Made by a program: the position numbers and the translations under genes
The notes under the pieces: model-generated
Seen by the model: only the letters and a program-made list of their open reading frames with translations
Told to the model about the DNA's origin: nothing
Database searches by the model: none
NCBI GenBank assembly: GCA_026985515.1
Contig: JALSQH010000176.1
Location: forward strand, 1-9,752
Origin: a bacterium
GTDB taxonomy: Bacteria > JALSQH01
Direction of reading: 5' to 3'
DNA length: 9,752 bases
Part shown: in pieces, positions 450 through 9,752 of the stretch
How positions within the stretch are numbered: position 1 is the stretch's first letter
How the letters are laid out: the number at the start of each line of letters is the position of its first letter

Positions 450-1301
450 ATGAGAAAGGTGGCCTTTTTGCTTTTGTCAATTTTACTGGCCTTACCAGTT
501 ATGGCTGACAATTATTCAACGCCGGCTACCGGTATAGTTAAGGGTTCGTATGAAGATCTTATCAACAGGGCCAACAGTTTCTGGAAGAATCGCTATAACA
601 GGGATTCGCTTCTAAAGTCCCTTGAGCTCTATAAAAAGGCGTATGAAAAGCGTCCGGATAAAGCCTATTTCCCCGCAGTCCGTCTATCCCGGGGATACTA
701 CTTTCTTGCAGAAGCCTTTGACAGGGGAAATAAGGAAAAGATGCTGAAGGATTATGAAATGGGCAAGGATTGGGGAATAAAGGCTCTTCAGACGAACGAC
801 ATGGTGAAAAAAGCAGGAGATAAGTGGTACAAGGTGGTTAATAAGCTCGGAAAGGAATACATTGAAGCGATGTACTGGACGGCAGTAAACCTTGGAAAAT
901 GGTCCAAGCTTTATGGAATCATGAAATCAATCTTTAACCTTTCAAAAGTCAAAAGCCTGATCAGGCGTGTGGGAGAACTTGATCCAACCTTCTTTTATGG
1001 AGCACCAGATCGCTACTGGGGAGCTTACTATGCCGCCATTCCCGGCTTGATGGGAGGAAGTCTTAAGAAATCAAAGGAGCATTTTGAAAAATCACTGAAG
1101 ATAGCGCCCTATTACCTTGAGACAAAAGTTCTCTACGCTGAATTTTATGCGGTTAAAAAAGGGGATAAAAAGCTTTTTAAGAAATTGCTTAATGAGGTAT
1201 TGAAGGCGGATGTTAATGTTTATCCAGATGTAATTCCTGAGCAGAAGGTTTCTCAGGACAAGGCAAGGGAGTTATTGAAGAAGATTGACGAATTGTTTTA
1301 A
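450..1301 (+). CDS. tatT: TRAP transporter-associated TatT-like periplasmic protein
   Basis: This is a 283-residue exported helical-repeat protein of the TatT family (T component of TRAP transporters, described from Treponema pallidum), which partners the DctP-type binding protein encoded next. The start at 450 is preceded by CGGAGG (438-443) at good spacing; an upstream in-frame start at 408 lies inside the promoter and is unlikely. Residues 1-20 form a signal peptide (MRKVAFLLLSILLALPVMA) with a type I cleavage site rather than a lipobox. TPR-like segments include LLKSLELYKKAYEKRPDKAY. From about residue 180 comes the family hallmark: YGAPDRYWGAYYA, then PGLMGGSLKKSKEHFEKSL and LETKVLYAEFYA. 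In the family, a trimeric TatT with hydrophobic pores docks the binding protein. Here it is 9 nt upstream of dctP, but no permease gene follows. The family call is strong; the ligand is unknown. Confidence 0.85.
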   Translation: MRKVAFLLLSILLALPVMADNYSTPATGIVKGSYEDLINRANSFWKNRYNRDSLLKSLELYKKAYEKRPDKAYFPAVRLSRGYYFLAEAFDRGNKEKMLKDYEMGKDWGIKALQTNDMVKKAGDKWYKVVNKLGKEYIEAMYWTAVNLGKWSKLYGIMKSIFNLSKVKSLIRRVGELDPTFFYGAPDRYWGAYYAAIPGLMGGSLKKSKEHFEKSLKIAPYYLETKVLYAEFYAVKKGDKKLFKKLLNEVLKADVNVYPDVIPEQKVSQDKARELLKKIDELF

Positions 1302-1310
1302 GGGGGGATC

Positions 1311-2312
1311 ATGAAGAAAATAATTATTGCGGTGGTGGGAGTAATTTTTATTTCGTTGCCCCTCTATGGGGGAAAGATAATTATGAAATTCGCCAACATT
1401 GCACCTGAAGATTCTCCATGGCATGAAGCCCTGAAGCAGTTTAAAAGCGAAGTTTACAGAGATTCTGGGGGACAACTTATTGTGAAGCTCTACATGGGTG
1501 GTCGGCTTGGGGATGAAAACACGATGGTGGAGAAAACAGTTTATGGAGCAATAGAGTGTTCCGGAATAAGTACAGGTGCAGTGGCAACCATTATTCCATC
1601 CATCCAGGTTTTTGAACTTCCCTTTGTGTGGAACAGTTATGATGAATATGATTATGTGACAGCCCACTATCTCCAGCCCTATTTTGCAAAGAAGTTGAGA
1701 GCGAAGGGACTTTTCCTTTTGGGATTTGTGGAGCATGGATGGAGAAATTTTCATTCGCGGACAAAACCAATCAGATGGCCAGATGATTTAAAAGGGATGA
1801 GGGTTCGTTCCCAGCAGAGTAAACTTCATGTAGAATTCTGGAAAACTCTTGGAGCCATACCCATTCCCATACCAATACCAAAGGTGCTTGATGCCTTTAA
1901 AAACGGAATTATTGAAGGTGGATCAAATACCCTTATTCTTACAGCTGCGCTGGGCTGGTATCAGTACCTCAAGTATATAACCCTTTCAAGGCATGTTTTC
2001 CAGCCTGTGGCAGTATTTTGCAACCTGAGGTGGTGGAATTCTCTGCCTGAAAAGTTGAGAAAGGTGATTTTAAAGAATTATCAGCCTCTTCCACCGAGAA
2101 TCCACGAAAAGCTAAAAGTTTCAACAAAGGAGTTGATTAAGGGTTTTAAAAGTTCCGGAATCCAGATTATTGAACTGACTCCACAGCAGAAAGAAGCGTT
2201 TAAGGAAAAATTCAAAAATTTTCCACGCAAGATGGAGCCCCTGATAGGCAGGGATGCACTCAATCTTCTTCTCAGGGGGAAACAGGATTACAGAAAGCAT
2301 AAATCGAAATAG
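1311..2312 (+). CDS. dctP: TRAP transporter solute-binding protein, DctP/TatP family
   Basis: This 333-residue periplasmic substrate-binding protein belongs to the tripartite ATP-independent transporters, which usually capture organic acids. AGGGGGG (1301-1307) precedes the ATG. Residues 1-20 are a signal peptide (MKKIIIAVVGVIFISLPLYG). The mature start (IIMKFANIAPEDSPWHEAL) and YMGGRLGDENTMVEKTVYGAIE match the DctP fold. DLKGMRVR, around residues 159-166, holds the conserved Arg that normally salt-bridges the ligand carboxylate. GAIPIPIPIPKVLDAFKNGIIEGG aligns with the family pattern GANPVPxPxxEVYxALxxGVVDG. The segment after it reads SNT where many members have an acidic or Asn ligand contact, so specificity may differ from C4-dicarboxylates. 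Pairing with TatT fits the TatP subgroup, proposed to bind hydrophobic ligands. Its stop codon TAG overlaps the AGGAGG that serves the AOR gene, indicating translational linkage. Confidence 0.9.
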   Translation: MKKIIIAVVGVIFISLPLYGGKIIMKFANIAPEDSPWHEALKQFKSEVYRDSGGQLIVKLYMGGRLGDENTMVEKTVYGAIECSGISTGAVATIIPSIQVFELPFVWNSYDEYDYVTAHYLQPYFAKKLRAKGLFLLGFVEHGWRNFHSRTKPIRWPDDLKGMRVRSQQSKLHVEFWKTLGAIPIPIPIPKVLDAFKNGIIEGGSNTLILTAALGWYQYLKYITLSRHVFQPVAVFCNLRWWNSLPEKLRKVILKNYQPLPPRIHEKLKVSTKELIKGFKSSGIQIIELTPQQKEAFKEKFKNFPRKMEPLIGRDALNLLLRGKQDYRKHKSK

Positions 2313-2320
2313 GAGGTAAT

Positions 2321-4327
2321 ATGGCTGGCGGATACATGGGTAAGATTCTGTGGGTTGATCTCAGTGAAGGGAAATGGTGGGAGGAAGAGCTTCCTGAAGA
2401 AATTTACAGAAATTTCCTGGGAGGATATGGCCTTGGTGCCAGAATCATTTACGAAAGACAACCGGCGGGAGTTGAGCCCCTTTCACCTGAGGCAATTTTT
2501 GGGGTTACTGCAGGGGTGCTTACTGGAACAGGTGCTCTTTTCATGGGAAGATACACCGCTGTGGGAAAGTCGCCTCTTACTGGGGGATGGGGTGATTCAA
2601 ACTCAGGTGGTTACTTTGCTCCAGCTATAAAACAGGCAGGTTACGATGCCATTTTCTTCAGAGGAAAAGCTGAAAAACCTGTGTATCTTGCAATTATCGG
2701 AGATAAAATTGAGTTGAGAGACGCTTCTCATCTCTGGGGTGTGGATGCGGTGGAAGCGGAGAAGAGGCTGAAAGAAGAGGTGGGGCAGAAAAGAGCTCAG
2801 GTAGCTGTAATAGGACAGGCGGCGGAAAATCTCTCCCTCATTTCAGGGATCATCACGGACAGAGGCAGAATTGCTGCGAGGTCTGGTCTTGGTGCAGTGA
2901 TGGGTTCAAAAAATCTCAAAGCCATTGTTCTTGCAGGTAGGGCAAGAATAAATGTTGCTGATCGGAAGAGGATGACCGAGATAACGAGAACATACATGAA
3001 GAAATTTGAGGGGAAAATGCTCCTCGAGGCGCTTCTGAAGGGTCCAGGTTTGAGATTTCTTGCTCGACTTCTCTCCAGAAAGTTGCCCTTCGGTATCAGG
3101 CAGGAAGGGTGGCAGTGGAAGGCAATTCTCAAAAGATATGGAACATCAGGTATTTCTGCTCTCAGTGCCCTCAATGGAGACATGCCCATCAAGAACTGGG
3201 CTGGAGCTGGTATTGTTGACTTTCCCATAAGTAAAGCAAAAAAGGTCAGTGATGACGCGGTAATTGCCTTTGAGAAGGAAAAGTACAACTGCTACAGCTG
3301 TCCCCTTGGATGTGGGGGAATATTTGAGCTGAATAGAGAGAAATATGGATTTGAAGAATCCCACAAACCCGAGTATGAAACCCTTGGAGTTTTTGGAGGA
3401 CTCATTCTCAACGATGATATTGACATAATAATCAAAATGAATGAGATGGCTAACAGAGCAGGAATTGACACAATTTCAGCTGGAGAAACAATTGCCTTTG
3501 CCTTTGAAGCTTATGAAAGGGGCTATCTGACAAATTCTGACACTGATGGTCTGGAGCTGGTATGGGGTAACGGAGAGGCTGCCTATAAGTTGCTTGAGAA
3601 GATGATAAAGAGGGAGGGAATAGGAGATATACTGGCAGATGGTATAAAGAAGGCAATTGAAAAACTTGGAAAGAAAGAGATGGCAGAGTTTGGAATGCAT
3701 GCAGGGGGACAGGAACTTCCCATGCACGATCCAAGGTATGACCCTGGTTATGGAATAGGATATGAGGGTGAACCCACCCCAGGCAGACACACCATTGCTT
3801 CTTACACATATCAGGAGTTAATGGCAATTTATAAAAAATACAAAGATGTGCCAAAGGAACCACCTCTCTACAACATAAAGAACAAGTACTCAACTGAAAA
3901 TAAGGGAAGGGGCCAGATGTACGCAAGTCTCTGGCAGGAGCTGAATAATGGATGTGGAGGTTGTCTTTTCGGATTGCAAACTGGTATAGATCTCCCACTT
4001 GTTGAGTGGTTGAATGCTGCGACTGGCTGGAACCTCTCTGAGGAGGAGTATCTGAAAATAGCGAAAAGAATGAAAACACTCAGACAGGCTTTTAACGCCA
4101 GAGAGGGGATTGTACCCGGAAGGGACTTCAGAATGCCTGGAAGAGCCACCGGTCATCCACCATTGAAATATGGACCTGTTGCAGGTGTTACACTTGATAT
4201 GAAAAAATTGGTTGGAGATTTCTGGAAGGAGCTTGGATGGAATCCGGAAACTGGAATTCCAGAAAAGAAAACCCTTGAAGAGCTTGGTCTGGATTTTGTT
4301 CTGAAAGATCTTTATCCGGAGGGATAA
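2321..4327 (+). CDS. aor: Aldehyde:ferredoxin oxidoreductase (tungsten/molybdenum-bis-pterin AOR family)
   Basis: This 668-residue cytoplasmic enzyme is expected to oxidise aldehydes to carboxylic acids (or act in reverse) using ferredoxin and a tungstopterin plus a [4Fe-4S] cluster. AGGAGG (2311-2316) precedes the ATG. The N-terminal domain begins MGKILWVDLSEGKWWEEELP and includes FLGGYGLGARIIYE, TGTGALFMGRYTAVGKSPLTGGWGDSNSGG and GQAAENLS, typical pterin-contact segments of the family. Cluster cysteines are C324, C327 and C331 (NCYSCPLGC), with C545 or C548 (NGCGGCLFG) as the distant fourth ligand. KPEYETLG (about residue 350) and DPRYDPGYGIGY are further family landmarks. The protein is longer than the classical ~605-residue hyperthermophile enzymes; the extra length seems to lie around residues 210-275. 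A MoaD-like gene directly downstream is a usual AOR companion. The exact substrate class cannot be told from sequence. Confidence 0.93.
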   Translation: MAGGYMGKILWVDLSEGKWWEEELPEEIYRNFLGGYGLGARIIYERQPAGVEPLSPEAIFGVTAGVLTGTGALFMGRYTAVGKSPLTGGWGDSNSGGYFAPAIKQAGYDAIFFRGKAEKPVYLAIIGDKIELRDASHLWGVDAVEAEKRLKEEVGQKRAQVAVIGQAAENLSLISGIITDRGRIAARSGLGAVMGSKNLKAIVLAGRARINVADRKRMTEITRTYMKKFEGKMLLEALLKGPGLRFLARLLSRKLPFGIRQEGWQWKAILKRYGTSGISALSALNGDMPIKNWAGAGIVDFPISKAKKVSDDAVIAFEKEKYNCYSCPLGCGGIFELNREKYGFEESHKPEYETLGVFGGLILNDDIDIIIKMNEMANRAGIDTISAGETIAFAFEAYERGYLTNSDTDGLELVWGNGEAAYKLLEKMIKREGIGDILADGIKKAIEKLGKKEMAEFGMHAGGQELPMHDPRYDPGYGIGYEGEPTPGRHTIASYTYQELMAIYKKYKDVPKEPPLYNIKNKYSTENKGRGQMYASLWQELNNGCGGCLFGLQTGIDLPLVEWLNAATGWNLSEEEYLKIAKRMKTLRQAFNAREGIVPGRDFRMPGRATGHPPLKYGPVAGVTLDMKKLVGDFWKELGWNPETGIPEKKTLEELGLDFVLKDLYPEG

Positions 4328-4364
4328 ATTGAGAGGAGGAAGTTTACTCTCAGTTTTGATCTCA

Positions 4365-4667
4365 ATGAGTTCAATGAGATGCAGGGGGCCCGTGAAGGTA
4401 AAAGTCACGGCGGGGATCTTTGTTGATGGGAAAAATGTTACTGAAGAGATGGAAATAGGGTTAGAGAAAAGGGCAAGCATAAGAGATCTCTTCAGGTGTC
4501 TTGACAGGCAGGAAAAGTTCCCGCCGGGCACTTTCAAAAAATTAATGAAAGATCCGGGTATTACGCTTCTTCTCAATGGTAAGCGGTTGAGTGTACCTGA
4601 AGACCTTGATACTGAACTTAAGGATGGCGACGAAGTTACAATAATATCAAGTGTGGCAGGAGGTTAA
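4365..4667 (+). CDS. MoaD/ThiS-like ubiquitin-fold sulfur carrier
   Basis: This is a small beta-grasp protein, 100 residues from this start. It opens with a strand KVKVTAGIFVDG, continues through LLLNGKRLSVPEDLDTELKDGDEVTIISSVAGG and ends in the exposed Gly-Gly that MoaD/ThiS proteins use as an acyl-adenylate/thiocarboxylate. Next to an AOR gene it most likely supplies sulfur for the dithiolene of the tungsto/molybdopterin cofactor. The start is uncertain. ATG 4365 has no good ribosome binding site. TTG 4329 has GGAGGG (4318-4323) at 5-nt spacing and would couple to the AOR stop. GTG 4392 has AGGGGG (4383-4388) very close and gives the most typical family length (about 91 residues). The C-terminal part is secure. 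The last codons GCA-GGA-GGT also form the ribosome binding site of the next gene. Confidence 0.8.
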   Translation: MSSMRCRGPVKVKVTAGIFVDGKNVTEEMEIGLEKRASIRDLFRCLDRQEKFPPGTFKKLMKDPGITLLLNGKRLSVPEDLDTELKDGDEVTIISSVAGG

Positions 4668-4668
4668 G

Positions 4669-5505
4669 ATGGGAATAAAAGAACATTATGAGGATACTTT
4701 TACCGGGGTGGGAGGTGTAAAACTTTACTGCCAGAGATACATTGTGGATGAACCAAAGGCAACGGTGGTTGTGGTTCACGGGCTTGGAGAACATTCGGGC
4801 AGGTATGGCAATGTTATAAACGCACTGGTTCCCGAGGGATACAACATTTTCCTCTACGACCTCAGGGGTCACGGAAAATCTGAAGGTCAGAGAGGACATG
4901 TTTACAATTTTGATCATTATATTGAAGATACCAGGATATTTGTGGAAAATGCCCGTGATAGAACAGGTCTGCTCACAATTTTACTTGGCCACAGCATGGG
5001 TGGCCTTATTGTTCTTCTCTTCGGAGAAAAGTATCAGGACCTTATAAAACTGCTCGTGGCATCTGGACCTGCGGTTAAAATAGCTGTGGAAGTACCAAAA
5101 TGGAAAGAAGCGATTGGAAAATTTGTTTCCAATATCTTTCCAACTTTATCCATGACAAATGAGATTGATCCCTCCCTCCTCAGCCATGATCCGGTGGTTG
5201 TAAAGGAGTATGAAAATGATCCTCTGGTCATAAGAAAAGTTTCAGCAAGATGGTTCACAGAATTTCTTCGTGCACAGAAGGAAGTCCTTGAGAATGCTCA
5301 TAAGTTGAAACTTCCCCTTCTCCTCCAGCAGGGGGGTGATGATCAGATTGTGAGCCCGGATGGTGCAAAGGAGTTCTATGAGAGAGCTGGATCAGAGGAT
5401 AAGGAACTGAAGATCTATCCAGGTCTCTATCACGAAATTTACAATGAAACCGAAAAGGAAAAAGTACTGAGTGATCTTACGGAGTGGTTGAAGAAAAGAA
5501 TATAA
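4669..5505 (+). CDS. Alpha/beta hydrolase, monoacylglycerol lipase / lysophospholipase type
   Basis: This 278-residue protein is likely a cytoplasmic serine hydrolase acting on monoacylglycerols, lysophospholipids or similar esters. The start at 4669 has AGGAGG (4658-4663) at 5-nt spacing and lies 1 nt after the preceding stop. The oxyanion-hole segment is VVHGLGEHSGRYGNV, followed by LYDLRGHGKSEGQRGHV, a signature of the Hydrolase_4/MGL group. The catalytic triad is visible: S109 in GHSMGG, D225 in GGDDQIVSP and H255 in LYHEIYNE. No signal peptide or membrane segment is evident. As the last gene of the tatT-dctP-AOR-moaD run, and with a lipase upstream of that run, it suggests the module deals with ester-derived compounds. 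The true substrate is unknown; thioesterase or carboxylesterase activity is also possible. Confidence 0.9.
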   Translation: MGIKEHYEDTFTGVGGVKLYCQRYIVDEPKATVVVVHGLGEHSGRYGNVINALVPEGYNIFLYDLRGHGKSEGQRGHVYNFDHYIEDTRIFVENARDRTGLLTILLGHSMGGLIVLLFGEKYQDLIKLLVASGPAVKIAVEVPKWKEAIGKFVSNIFPTLSMTNEIDPSLLSHDPVVVKEYENDPLVIRKVSARWFTEFLRAQKEVLENAHKLKLPLLLQQGGDDQIVSPDGAKEFYERAGSEDKELKIYPGLYHEIYNETEKEKVLSDLTEWLKKRI

Positions 5506-5509
5506 AAAA

Positions 5510-5585
5510 TGGTGGAGCTGAGCGGACTCGAACCGCCGACCTCCTGAATGCCATTCAGGCGCTCTCCCAACTGAGCTACAGCCCC
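5510..5585 (-). tRNA. tRNA-Ala (anticodon GGC)
   Basis: The reverse complement begins GGGGCTGTAGCTCAG and folds into a full 76-nt cloverleaf. The acceptor arm GGGGCTG pairs with CAGCTCC (one G-T wobble), followed by discriminator A and an encoded CCA. The D-arm has the usual GCTCAGTTGGGAGAGC. The anticodon stem CCTGA/TCAGG encloses loop ATGGCAT, giving GGC (Ala, codon GCC and wobble GCT). The T-arm contains GGTTCGAGTCC. Directly after CCA the transcript runs into six U residues, which may help end transcription. It converges with the hydrolase gene, whose stop codon is 5 nt away. Confidence 0.97.
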
Positions 5586-5592
5586 ACGACAA

Positions 5593-5625
5593 ATTTTATT
5601 TTACCACTTTGAAGCAGGAATGCAA
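5593..5625 (-). promoter_or_regulatory. Probable promoter of tRNA-Ala
   Basis: Reading the - strand upstream of the tRNA, a weak -35-like TTGCAT (5625-5620) is followed after 16 nt by a good -10 box TAAAAT (5603-5598), which is repeated in tandem at 5598-5593. Initiation would fall a few bases before the mature tRNA 5' end at 5585. The -35 region overlaps the start codon region of the + strand lipoprotein gene. Moderate support only. Confidence 0.45.
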
Positions 5626-7188
5626 GTGATAAAAAGCAGAGGTCTTATTTTTTTGTTTTCTATTTGTTTTCTGATTTTTTCCGCGGTATCCTGCAAGAGG
5701 AAGGAAACCGGCGGCAGGGTCAATGCAAATCTGGAAAAAGTGGTTACTCTTAATTTTTCTCCATCCAGAACAGAGGAAAGGCTGAAGAGTTTTGGCGGGA
5801 TTCATCCTCTTGATCTCTCTGTCCTCTCCATGAATTACTTCAGGAGAGGAGAAATTGGTCGAGGAATAAAGTTGCTTGAAACTCTTTTTTCTCAGTATCC
5901 CATATATCATACCGGAGGTGGACTCGTTTTTGGATACAGCAGAAAATGGAAAATTGGAAGGGGGGTACACAGAAAGAAAAGGAAGTTCTGGTGGTCTTGT
6001 ATGGCTCAATCTGCTGTGGCTATGGCTTTATACAGGGCTTATCTCGTTTCGGGAGAGAAAAAATATATCAACAGCATTGAAGAAGTGTTAAAACCGGTTG
6101 TTACTCTCACTGATAATGGAGGTGGAGCTGTAAGAGTTGGTAATGGAAGGTGGTATCTTGAGTATGTTTTTCGCGGTGCCAGCGAGAAAAATGTAGAATT
6201 TGTTCTGAATGGGTTTCTTTACTCCCTCCTGGTTATCGGGTATCTGAGTAAAGAATTGCACTGGAGCTGGTTAAAAAAGGCTTTTGAGGATGGCGTTACA
6301 GCATACTTGAATTTAAGAGAAAAATTTTTCTACACAACAAATGGTGCAGAGTGGACACTTTACAGTTTACTTCCCTCCATTGACCCACCCCATTACCACA
6401 TTTTCGTTATTGAACTTCTTGATTCCCTCTGGCAGATTTCAAAAATAGATATCTTTAAAAGGGATGCTGTAAAGTGGACAAAAATTCTTTTTAAGAATTA
6501 CCCCTTTCTTGAAAAAAGTAATGAGCTCTACTGGTCTTCGGTGGGCCCCCCCTACTGGTGGTGGGTGGATATAAGATATGGGATTCTGTTCAAATATTCC
6601 GGCAAAAAGATTTTTGTAAAAGGGTGGAAAGATGGAATCAGGAATCTTTCCTCTCTCATTTTTGCAATGGGCAGGAAGAGGAGTAGTTTAATTACTCTTT
6701 CAATCCTGGCAGAAGATAATGTACCCGTTATCACTTTTACACAGGATTTAAAAGAATTCACTGAAAAAGAGGTACAGTATAAACCTCTATTGATCAGGTT
6801 TAAGAGAAAATATAAAGATGGGGTAAGGGTAGTGTTTAACCATGCTGATTCCCCTGTTAATATTCTTGTGATCGGCAGGGTGACGGGTTTAAAAGAAAAT
6901 TCGCAGATTAGGTGTTCACGATTATTTCTGGAATTTGATAATGGAATTGTTGTGAAGAAGTATAACCCTCCTTTGCCTTCCAGATTTATTCTTCCAGTTT
7001 CCTTTTTATCTTTTTACCCTGAGAAAAAAGGACCATGGAAGTTGAAGGCTCTAAGGCTCTTCCCATGCTATAGAAATGGGTATTCAATTGACGTTGAGGG
7101 AGTATATTTGTTCAACAATGTTCTGGCTCTTGAAGAAGTAGCAAGAAAATTTTCCCCATACAGGGTAGTTCTCGTTCCCCATGGATAA
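5626..7188 (+). CDS. Lipoprotein with D-glucuronyl C5-epimerase-like domain
   Basis: A 520-residue exported lipoprotein. GTG 5626 is preferred because AGGA (5616-5619) then sits 6 nt upstream; ATG 5620 would abut it. Residues 1-22 are a signal peptide ending FSAVSC, with lipid-anchored C23. From about residue 100 to 300 the sequence follows the C-terminal catalytic domain of heparosan D-glucuronyl C5-epimerases (Glce/PF06662). FWWSCMAQSAVAMALYRAYL corresponds to the WYSAMAQGQAISTLVRAYL pattern. GGGAVRVGNGRWYLEY (from 165) and FVLNGFLYSLL (from 192) match the (W)YEEYP...FVLNGFMYSL block. SLLPSIDPPHYHIFVIELL matches the xYHxxHIxQL segment. These hold most of the family's active-site Tyr/Glu region. 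Residues from about 300 to the end, rich in beta-strand patterns, are unrecognised. It probably acts on, or binds, a uronic-acid polysaccharide at the cell surface. Epimerase activity is inferred, not proven. Confidence 0.75.
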   Translation: MIKSRGLIFLFSICFLIFSAVSCKRKETGGRVNANLEKVVTLNFSPSRTEERLKSFGGIHPLDLSVLSMNYFRRGEIGRGIKLLETLFSQYPIYHTGGGLVFGYSRKWKIGRGVHRKKRKFWWSCMAQSAVAMALYRAYLVSGEKKYINSIEEVLKPVVTLTDNGGGAVRVGNGRWYLEYVFRGASEKNVEFVLNGFLYSLLVIGYLSKELHWSWLKKAFEDGVTAYLNLREKFFYTTNGAEWTLYSLLPSIDPPHYHIFVIELLDSLWQISKIDIFKRDAVKWTKILFKNYPFLEKSNELYWSSVGPPYWWWVDIRYGILFKYSGKKIFVKGWKDGIRNLSSLIFAMGRKRSSLITLSILAEDNVPVITFTQDLKEFTEKEVQYKPLLIRFKRKYKDGVRVVFNHADSPVNILVIGRVTGLKENSQIRCSRLFLEFDNGIVVKKYNPPLPSRFILPVSFLSFYPEKKGPWKLKALRLFPCYRNGYSIDVEGVYLFNNVLALEEVARKFSPYRVVLVPHG

Positions 7189-9406: not shown

Positions 9407-9414
9407 TATTTTTG

Positions 9415-9752
9415 ATGAAGATATCAAAACTGGTTCTACTCTTTACAGTTGTTTTTCTTATCATGACCAGTTGTGGAAGAGAGGAAAAGGCTGGTAATCC
9501 CGTCCTTTATCCTGAGTCAGAGGTTGTCTCAGAGATTGAACCAGTACCCAGATTAAAAATTCTGAAGGATGAAAAAGGAAGATTGACCCTGTTCTATCAG
9601 TCAAAGGGTTTGTATAAAGCAGTTTTTGATAAGAAATGGAGTTACCTTTCAGTCACGGATGTGGTGGGAGATATCAGGGATGGGTGGAGCACGGTCCTGT
9701 GTGGTGGAAGGATCAGGTTGATTGCAGAGAGTGTTGATGATCATCTGTATCT
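9415..9752 (+). CDS. Lipoprotein of unknown function, N-terminal part (3' end outside window)
   Basis: The frame runs open from ATG 9415 through the window end, giving 112 complete codons. Residues 1-19 form a signal peptide (MKISKLVLLFTVVFLIMTS) with a lipobox ending in C20, followed by the charged sequence GREEKAG. The mature part reads PVLYPESEVVSEIEPVPRLKILKDEK, then alternating hydrophobic stretches such as LTLFYQSKGLYKAVFDKKWSYLSVTDVVGD, which suggest beta structure. I recognise no family. It shares only the lipoprotein architecture with the epimerase-like protein upstream. It is probably anchored in a membrane and periplasmic or surface-exposed. Its promoter and missing ribosome binding site point to leaderless expression. 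An in-frame alternative start is not needed, since the signal peptide fits this ATG exactly. Confidence 0.75.
   Translation, partial: MKISKLVLLFTVVFLIMTSCGREEKAGNPVLYPESEVVSEIEPVPRLKILKDEKGRLTLFYQSKGLYKAVFDKKWSYLSVTDVVGDIRDGWSTVLCGGRIRLIAESVDDHLY

Follow-up and report, generated by a model that had tools for sequence, protein, structure and literature searches.

Composition of the operon

In this study we examined a window of 9752 nucleotides (nt), the whole of contig JALSQH010000176.1 from a bacterial metagenome-assembled genome (MAG; 2.36 Mb in 268 contigs, 97.6% complete). Within it, genes for a TatT-TatP pair stand in one tight operon with genes for an aldehyde oxidoreductase (AOR), a sulfur carrier and a hydrolase. 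Open reading frame and Pfam analyses placed the five genes on the forward strand in the order tatT, tatP/dctP, aor, moaD/thiS-like and hydrolase, with intergenic gaps of 9, 8, 1-64 and 1 nt; the third gap is set by the start codon of the MoaD-like gene (37 nt for ATG 4365). A sequence scan found a promoter-like site of the operon (TTGACA-N17-TATGCT; 399-427, + strand), which by count in the scan is an ordinary one. An earlier note on this DNA, made from its letters alone, had described five genes behind one promoter with gaps of 1, 8, 9 and about 37 nt, and its coordinates and gaps match those found here. As judged by reading the sequences, TatT and TatP carry Sec-type signal peptides and no lipobox; AOR, the MoaD-like protein and the hydrolase carry no signal peptide.

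The first gene (450-1301, + strand) encodes TatT, a predicted periplasmic T component of the tetratricopeptide repeat (TPR) type (PF16811, 1.5e-38). Its AlphaFold model has a predicted local distance difference test (pLDDT) score of 94.1, and the closest solved TatT is 8g52, deposited as a "bacterial TPAT family transporter" (Z 34.5, root-mean-square deviation 2.3, 256 residues aligned, 32% identity; phmmer 1.5e-39). The model also matches TatT of Treponema pallidum (Tp0956; 3u64, Z 26.0) and the sterol transporter BstC (7t1s, Z 21.1). The second gene (1311-2312, + strand), which starts 9 nt past tatT, encodes a TatP/DctP-type solute-binding protein (PF03480, 4e-62). The best structure matches of its model (pLDDT 93) are ordinary DctP proteins (7bbr, Z 38.9); TatP(T) of T. 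pallidum (4di3) is not among the best 50 matches, a result that carries no weight by itself.

The third gene (2321-4327, + strand) encodes a single-subunit, 668-residue AOR-family aldehyde oxidoreductase of the tungsten type, with AFOR_N (1.4e-75) and AFOR_C (9e-99) domains. Cysteines C324, C327, C331 and C548, the four of the cluster, together with the catalytic E353 and H490 (E313 and H448 in Pyrococcus furiosus), are invariant in 13 aligned sequences. The protein was also considered as a benzoyl-CoA reductase subunit (BamB), an assignment rejected on the scores (9e-68 to BamB versus 5e-102 to 1aor). No AorA or AorC partner gene is present in the operon. Family knowledge would give the enzyme a tungsten centre, coupling to ferredoxin and an aldehyde substrate. 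Behind it lies a MoaD/ThiS-like sulfur carrier gene (4392-4667, + strand; PF02597, 7e-7), the product of which combines a ThiS domain with a C-terminal GG (it ends in SSVAGG). Its frame is open from TTG 4329; candidate starts are TTG 4329, ATG 4365 and GTG 4392, the latter two being the likely ones. The last gene (4669-5505, + strand) encodes a predicted cytoplasmic serine hydrolase of the monoacylglycerol lipase type (Hydrolase_4, 3e-85; 4e-47 to the monoglyceride lipase of Mycobacterium tuberculosis, 6eic). A GxSxG nucleophile motif (GHSMGG), the Asp and His expected of such lipases and a GLYHE motif are present.

Conservation of the operon and neighbourhoods of AOR

The same gene order (L036/L045) was found in a sister MAG, G001 (80% complete, about 260 contigs; operon on contig JALTID010000243.1), where it includes the end of the lipase-like gene that lies upstream of the operon. 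This is the only other genome of the family compared and, by the kinship table, also the only other of the phylum; it belongs to another genus (taxon distances throughout were read from kinship labels). Protein identities between the two loci are 77% for TatT, 69% for TatP, 87% for AOR, 56% for the MoaD-like carrier and 79% for the hydrolase. Saturation of synonymous sites is complete or almost complete, and nonsynonymous divergence (dN) is 0.09-0.35. At the equivalent place in G001 stands TTGACA-N17-TATCCT, followed by GGAGG, so that both the hexamer pair and the 17-nt spacing persist. Because gene order and promoter spacing persist in two genera despite synonymous saturation and with low dN, all five genes are maintained by selection, and these sequence comparisons are strong evidence for one selected operon. 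A misassembly was rejected, as another MAG has the same order with proteins 56-87% identical.

Among 241 genomes of mixed kinship, the AOR subfamily is present in 11. In G001 and in eight genomes outside the family of the window, AOR is followed by a MoaD-like gene. Other neighbours are an AMP-binding ligase gene (G087, L086), an acyl-CoA dehydrogenase gene in front of AOR (G244 and G245; L095, L096) and moeA, which adjoins AOR in G015. In the same G015, at L079:8470-8679, an in-frame TAG takes the exact place of the first Glu in HKPEYE, the active-site motif of AOR (HKP*YE), whether through a pseudogene, an assembly error or recoding. In G036, of a third phylum (L085), a TatT-like gene precedes AOR of the subfamily and a MoaD-like gene follows it. 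This TatT-like protein is 28% identical to TatT of the window, misses PF16811 and groups with the window TatT in a weakly supported clade. AOR adjacency restricted to one strain, which would have spoken against the proposal made at the outset, was thus not what we found, given the second genus and the TatT-like gene beside AOR in G036. A complete TatT-TatP-DctQM set in a deltaproteobacterial MAG (L061:3630-9972) has an AOR 245 nt behind it, this one of another subfamily (28%).

The pairing of AOR with a MoaD-like gene is not new. It was described in 2006, when it was ascribed to tungsten cofactor supply, and AOR-MoaD was regarded as a sporadic, possibly mobile gene cluster (PMC1779556). AOR and its carrier do not, as such, take the place of a permease: AOR-MoaD is a long-known pair that, with or without the hydrolase, travels independently of TatT-TatP.

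Permease census and the ligand arginine

A genome profile search found one DctP in the window genome. DctM was found neither in this genome nor in G001, and DctQ had no search of its own; in G049 and G002 the same search does detect DctM, next to the TatT-TatP genes. Neither operon contains a permease gene, and other permease families had no genome-wide search. The surroundings of TatT were then compared in a census of the 66 genomes, out of 290 searched, that bear TatT. DctM lies close by in 45 of 54 adjacent TatT-TatP pairs, which bears out the view that such pairs normally come with a TRAP (tripartite ATP-independent periplasmic) permease. The permease that the earlier note could not see in the window can now be said, as far as DctM goes, to be missing from the whole genome and from its sister. 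The nine pairs without DctM are those of the window and G001, one that the end of its contig truncates (L155) and six uncut pairs (G006, G154, G132, G151, G040 and G149), two of which (G006 and G154) come from one genus. All six of the latter genomes have DctM elsewhere. Permease-less pairs thus seem, from these gene contents, to be a recurring minority, with absence of the permease from the whole genome confined to this family. In the census, TatT often has neither TatP nor DctM in its vicinity. The window genome has two more TatT-like genes, L040:1934-2773 (G000:C103) and L041:6727-7500 (G000:C219), neither of which adjoins TatP or a permease. In G038 (L165:4762-8660 and L181:7044-11278), DctQM lies between TatT and TatP, and where the ligand arginine would stand, TatP has His or Cys.

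Compared with the known classes, the operon has the TatT component and the adjacent DctP-type protein of a TPR-protein-associated TRAP transporter (TPAT), and it lacks DctQM (TatQM). Because a TRAP transporter comprises a binding protein together with the DctQM membrane domains, the operon is not classed as a transporter. In a TPAT, a TatT trimer with a hydrophobic pore binds three TatP; the models made here are of single chains.

Arg166 of the window TatP occupies what we take to be the ligand position of SiaP Arg147, placed through the GLKLRV motif. In the alignment, arginine stands at this position in the TatP of the window, G001 and G049 (a Dadabacteria MAG), as it does in ordinary DctP proteins (14 rows, 12 different); in every further TatP row from a TatT locus the residue is W, F, Y, H or C. 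In the tree, the TatP proteins of the window, G001 and G049 form one group (100/95), which a split (100/98) places with the arginine-bearing DctP proteins, away from the 63 others. The root was set for drawing purposes only. TatP(T) homologues mostly lack the ligand arginine (review PMC5812351), a loss that is usual in TPATs, if not universal. Since Arg166 is kept here, unlike in most TatP proteins, the window TatP probably binds a carboxylate. Hydrophobic ligands had been proposed before for such systems; that proposal was drawn from canonical TatP proteins without the arginine, whereas the window TatP retains it. At two canonical loci (L157:4207-6978 and L182:3767-6879; G151 and G253) an AMP-binding ligase gene follows TatP, a hint that canonical pairs, too, bind carboxylates.

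With regard to the surroundings of the operon, no riboswitch for the molybdenum or tungsten cofactor was found upstream by Rfam, which gave only a tRNA and one sub-threshold match. The operon is bounded downstream by that tRNA, tRNA-Ala(GGC) (5510-5585, - strand; ARAGORN, Rfam). Upstream (3-383, + strand) lies the C-terminal part of a putative lipase-like alpha/beta hydrolase, the 5' end of which is off the contig. It shows weak similarity (E 0.28-0.88) to secreted lipases in the PDB, among them lactonizing lipase, over the ND-G...DH catalytic region, and Pfam gave no match even at E 10. The ortholog at the same place in G001 is 81% identical over 54 residues. The lipase-like gene that had been reported upstream thus recurs in the sister genome, and its assignment to a lipase family is weakly supported. 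Beyond the tRNA, 5620-7188 encodes a lipoprotein (lipobox-like SAVSC) with a D-glucuronyl C5-epimerase C-terminal domain (PF06662, 1e-29), and a putative lipoprotein start at 9412-9752 runs off the contig end.

Proposed role and alternatives

The window genome contains 11 AMP-binding and 17 acyl-CoA dehydrogenase matches (the latter count includes one gene twice). Given that acyl metabolism is the common thread of the neighbours, that the genome is rich in acyl-CoA enzymes and that a ligase gene follows TatP in G151 and G253, we propose that the operon is a module for scavenging and oxidising hydrophobic acyl or aryl compounds, in which TatT-TatP would carry hydrophobic carboxylates in the periplasm. 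We give this reading a probability of about 40%. The link to acyl metabolism that had been suggested from the window itself is supported by the neighbours elsewhere and by the genome content.

The ligand, the direction of the reaction, the membrane crossing and the coupling of the pair to AOR we infer as follows. TatT and TatP, both exported, would act jointly as a carrier pair in the periplasm, the TPR pore of TatT taking up the lipophilic ligand and TatP holding its carboxylate through Arg166. In a genome that lacks a recognisable TRAP permease, the acid might cross the inner membrane unaided, by protonated flip-flop and acyl-CoA trapping, or with the help of a different family of permease. 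The cytoplasmic hydrolase would free acyl or alkyl moieties from esters, and the tungsten AOR, also in the cytoplasm, would oxidise aldehydes to acids and pass the electrons to ferredoxin; the dedicated MoaD-like carrier would supply the dithiolene sulfur of its tungstopterin. The acids could then be activated by AMP-forming ligases and beta-oxidised. It is solely the conservation of the operon that suggests a coupling of the pair to the enzymes, and family knowledge that suggests what each enzyme does.

Several findings weigh against this proposal. Only two MAGs, both from one family, are known to carry the complete operon, and AOR near TatT as a general rule had to be rejected, as no other TatT locus of the census has an adjacent AOR. 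A small hydrophilic carboxylate, such as ordinary DctP proteins bind, would suit Arg166 equally well. Moreover, AOR-MoaD-hydrolase occurs without TatT-TatP in G041, G186 and G246 (L081, L082 and L097), all of one other phylum, where the hydrolase orthologs behind AOR-MoaD are 41-44% identical to that of the window. The operon may therefore be a join of two independent modules. On that account, which is doubtful and yet the likeliest of the alternatives, TatT-TatP would serve lipid traffic or maintenance in the envelope, like BstC, while AOR, its carrier and the hydrolase would form a separate detoxification or catabolic cassette that shares the promoter and handles different molecules. The frequency of solitary TatT genes and the sporadic, possibly mobile nature of AOR-MoaD (PMC1779556) fit such an account; order and spacing that outlast synonymous saturation in two genera, and the TatT-like gene before AOR in G036, argue against it.

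Alternatively, TatP might hand its ligand over to a permease that is encoded elsewhere and belongs to another family. A DctP-type protein with an intact arginine and a normal fold would be expected to serve one, and TRAP-type binding proteins that work with non-TRAP permeases exist, as in TAXI-GltS (PMC12344293); with no permease gene in either operon, we regard this as unlikely. Still less probable is an AOR running in reverse, using ferredoxin to turn acids received from TatT-TatP into aldehydes from which wax esters or ether lipids would be made. The substrate class would suit a carboxylate-binding TatP and enzymes of the AOR type do reduce acids at low potential, but they mainly oxidise aldehydes, acid reduction proceeding at <0.3% of that rate (PMC6365974), and the neighbours of the relatives (acyl-CoA dehydrogenase, ligase, lipase) are catabolic. 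In G058 (L144:583-5851), a TatP-type gene, a Reg_prop histidine kinase gene and TatT stand side by side, an arrangement that would suit a TatT-TatP pair signalling through a receptor rather than carrying a ligand; since neither the window nor the sister locus contains a kinase or receptor gene, such a sensor is very improbable here. The least probable explanation is that DctQM exists and is absent from both assemblies. Both are fragmented MAGs and the sister is 80% complete; however, the window genome is 97.6% complete, both assemblies contain the region downstream of the pair, and the chance of missing the genes twice, if independent, is about 0.5% by an estimate from the completeness values.

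Returning to the proposed scavenging module, the operon is best read as a variation on the TPAT theme, known from T. pallidum (Tp0956-Tp0957 with a QM gene). Alike are the TatT fold (Z 26), the tatT-tatP order and the export of both proteins. Here, in contrast, no TatQM was found in the genome (by the DctM search; DctQ was not searched separately), the arginine that is replaced in TatP(T) homologues is kept, the lipobox is missing and metabolic enzymes lie downstream. BstC, the sterol carrier of methanotrophs, likewise has a TatT-like fold and works outside a TRAP system (PMC10942540), although its partner BstB is of the phosphonate-binding type and that of the window TatT is a DctP. The adjacency of AOR and a MoaD-like carrier is shared with the pair described earlier (PMC1779556) and with aorABCDE of Aromatoleum (PMC6365974); the differences are a single-subunit, 668-residue subfamily, no AorA or AorC and a monoacylglycerol lipase-type hydrolase behind. 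TAXI-GltS shares a TRAP-type binding protein without a TRAP permease, but another permease is encoded adjacent there and none is here. A bolder possibility, which we consider rather unlikely, is that a TRAP-derived pair permanently shed its permease in this lineage and is now a permease-independent carrier of fatty or aryl acids, bound by its operon to AOR; the arginine-retaining TatP would then link ordinary DctP to the arginine-less, lipid-type TatP.

The pairing with AOR and a hydrolase of the monoacylglycerol lipase type narrows the choice of candidate ligands for TatT-TatP. In genomes without a recognisable TRAP permease, the periplasmic pair can be studied independently of transport. The split at the arginine position, with Arg in three loci and an aromatic residue in nearly all others, provides a sequence marker for two likely chemical classes of TatT-paired binding proteins. 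These data suggest that such binding pairs may serve the metabolism of fatty compounds without their usual transporter.

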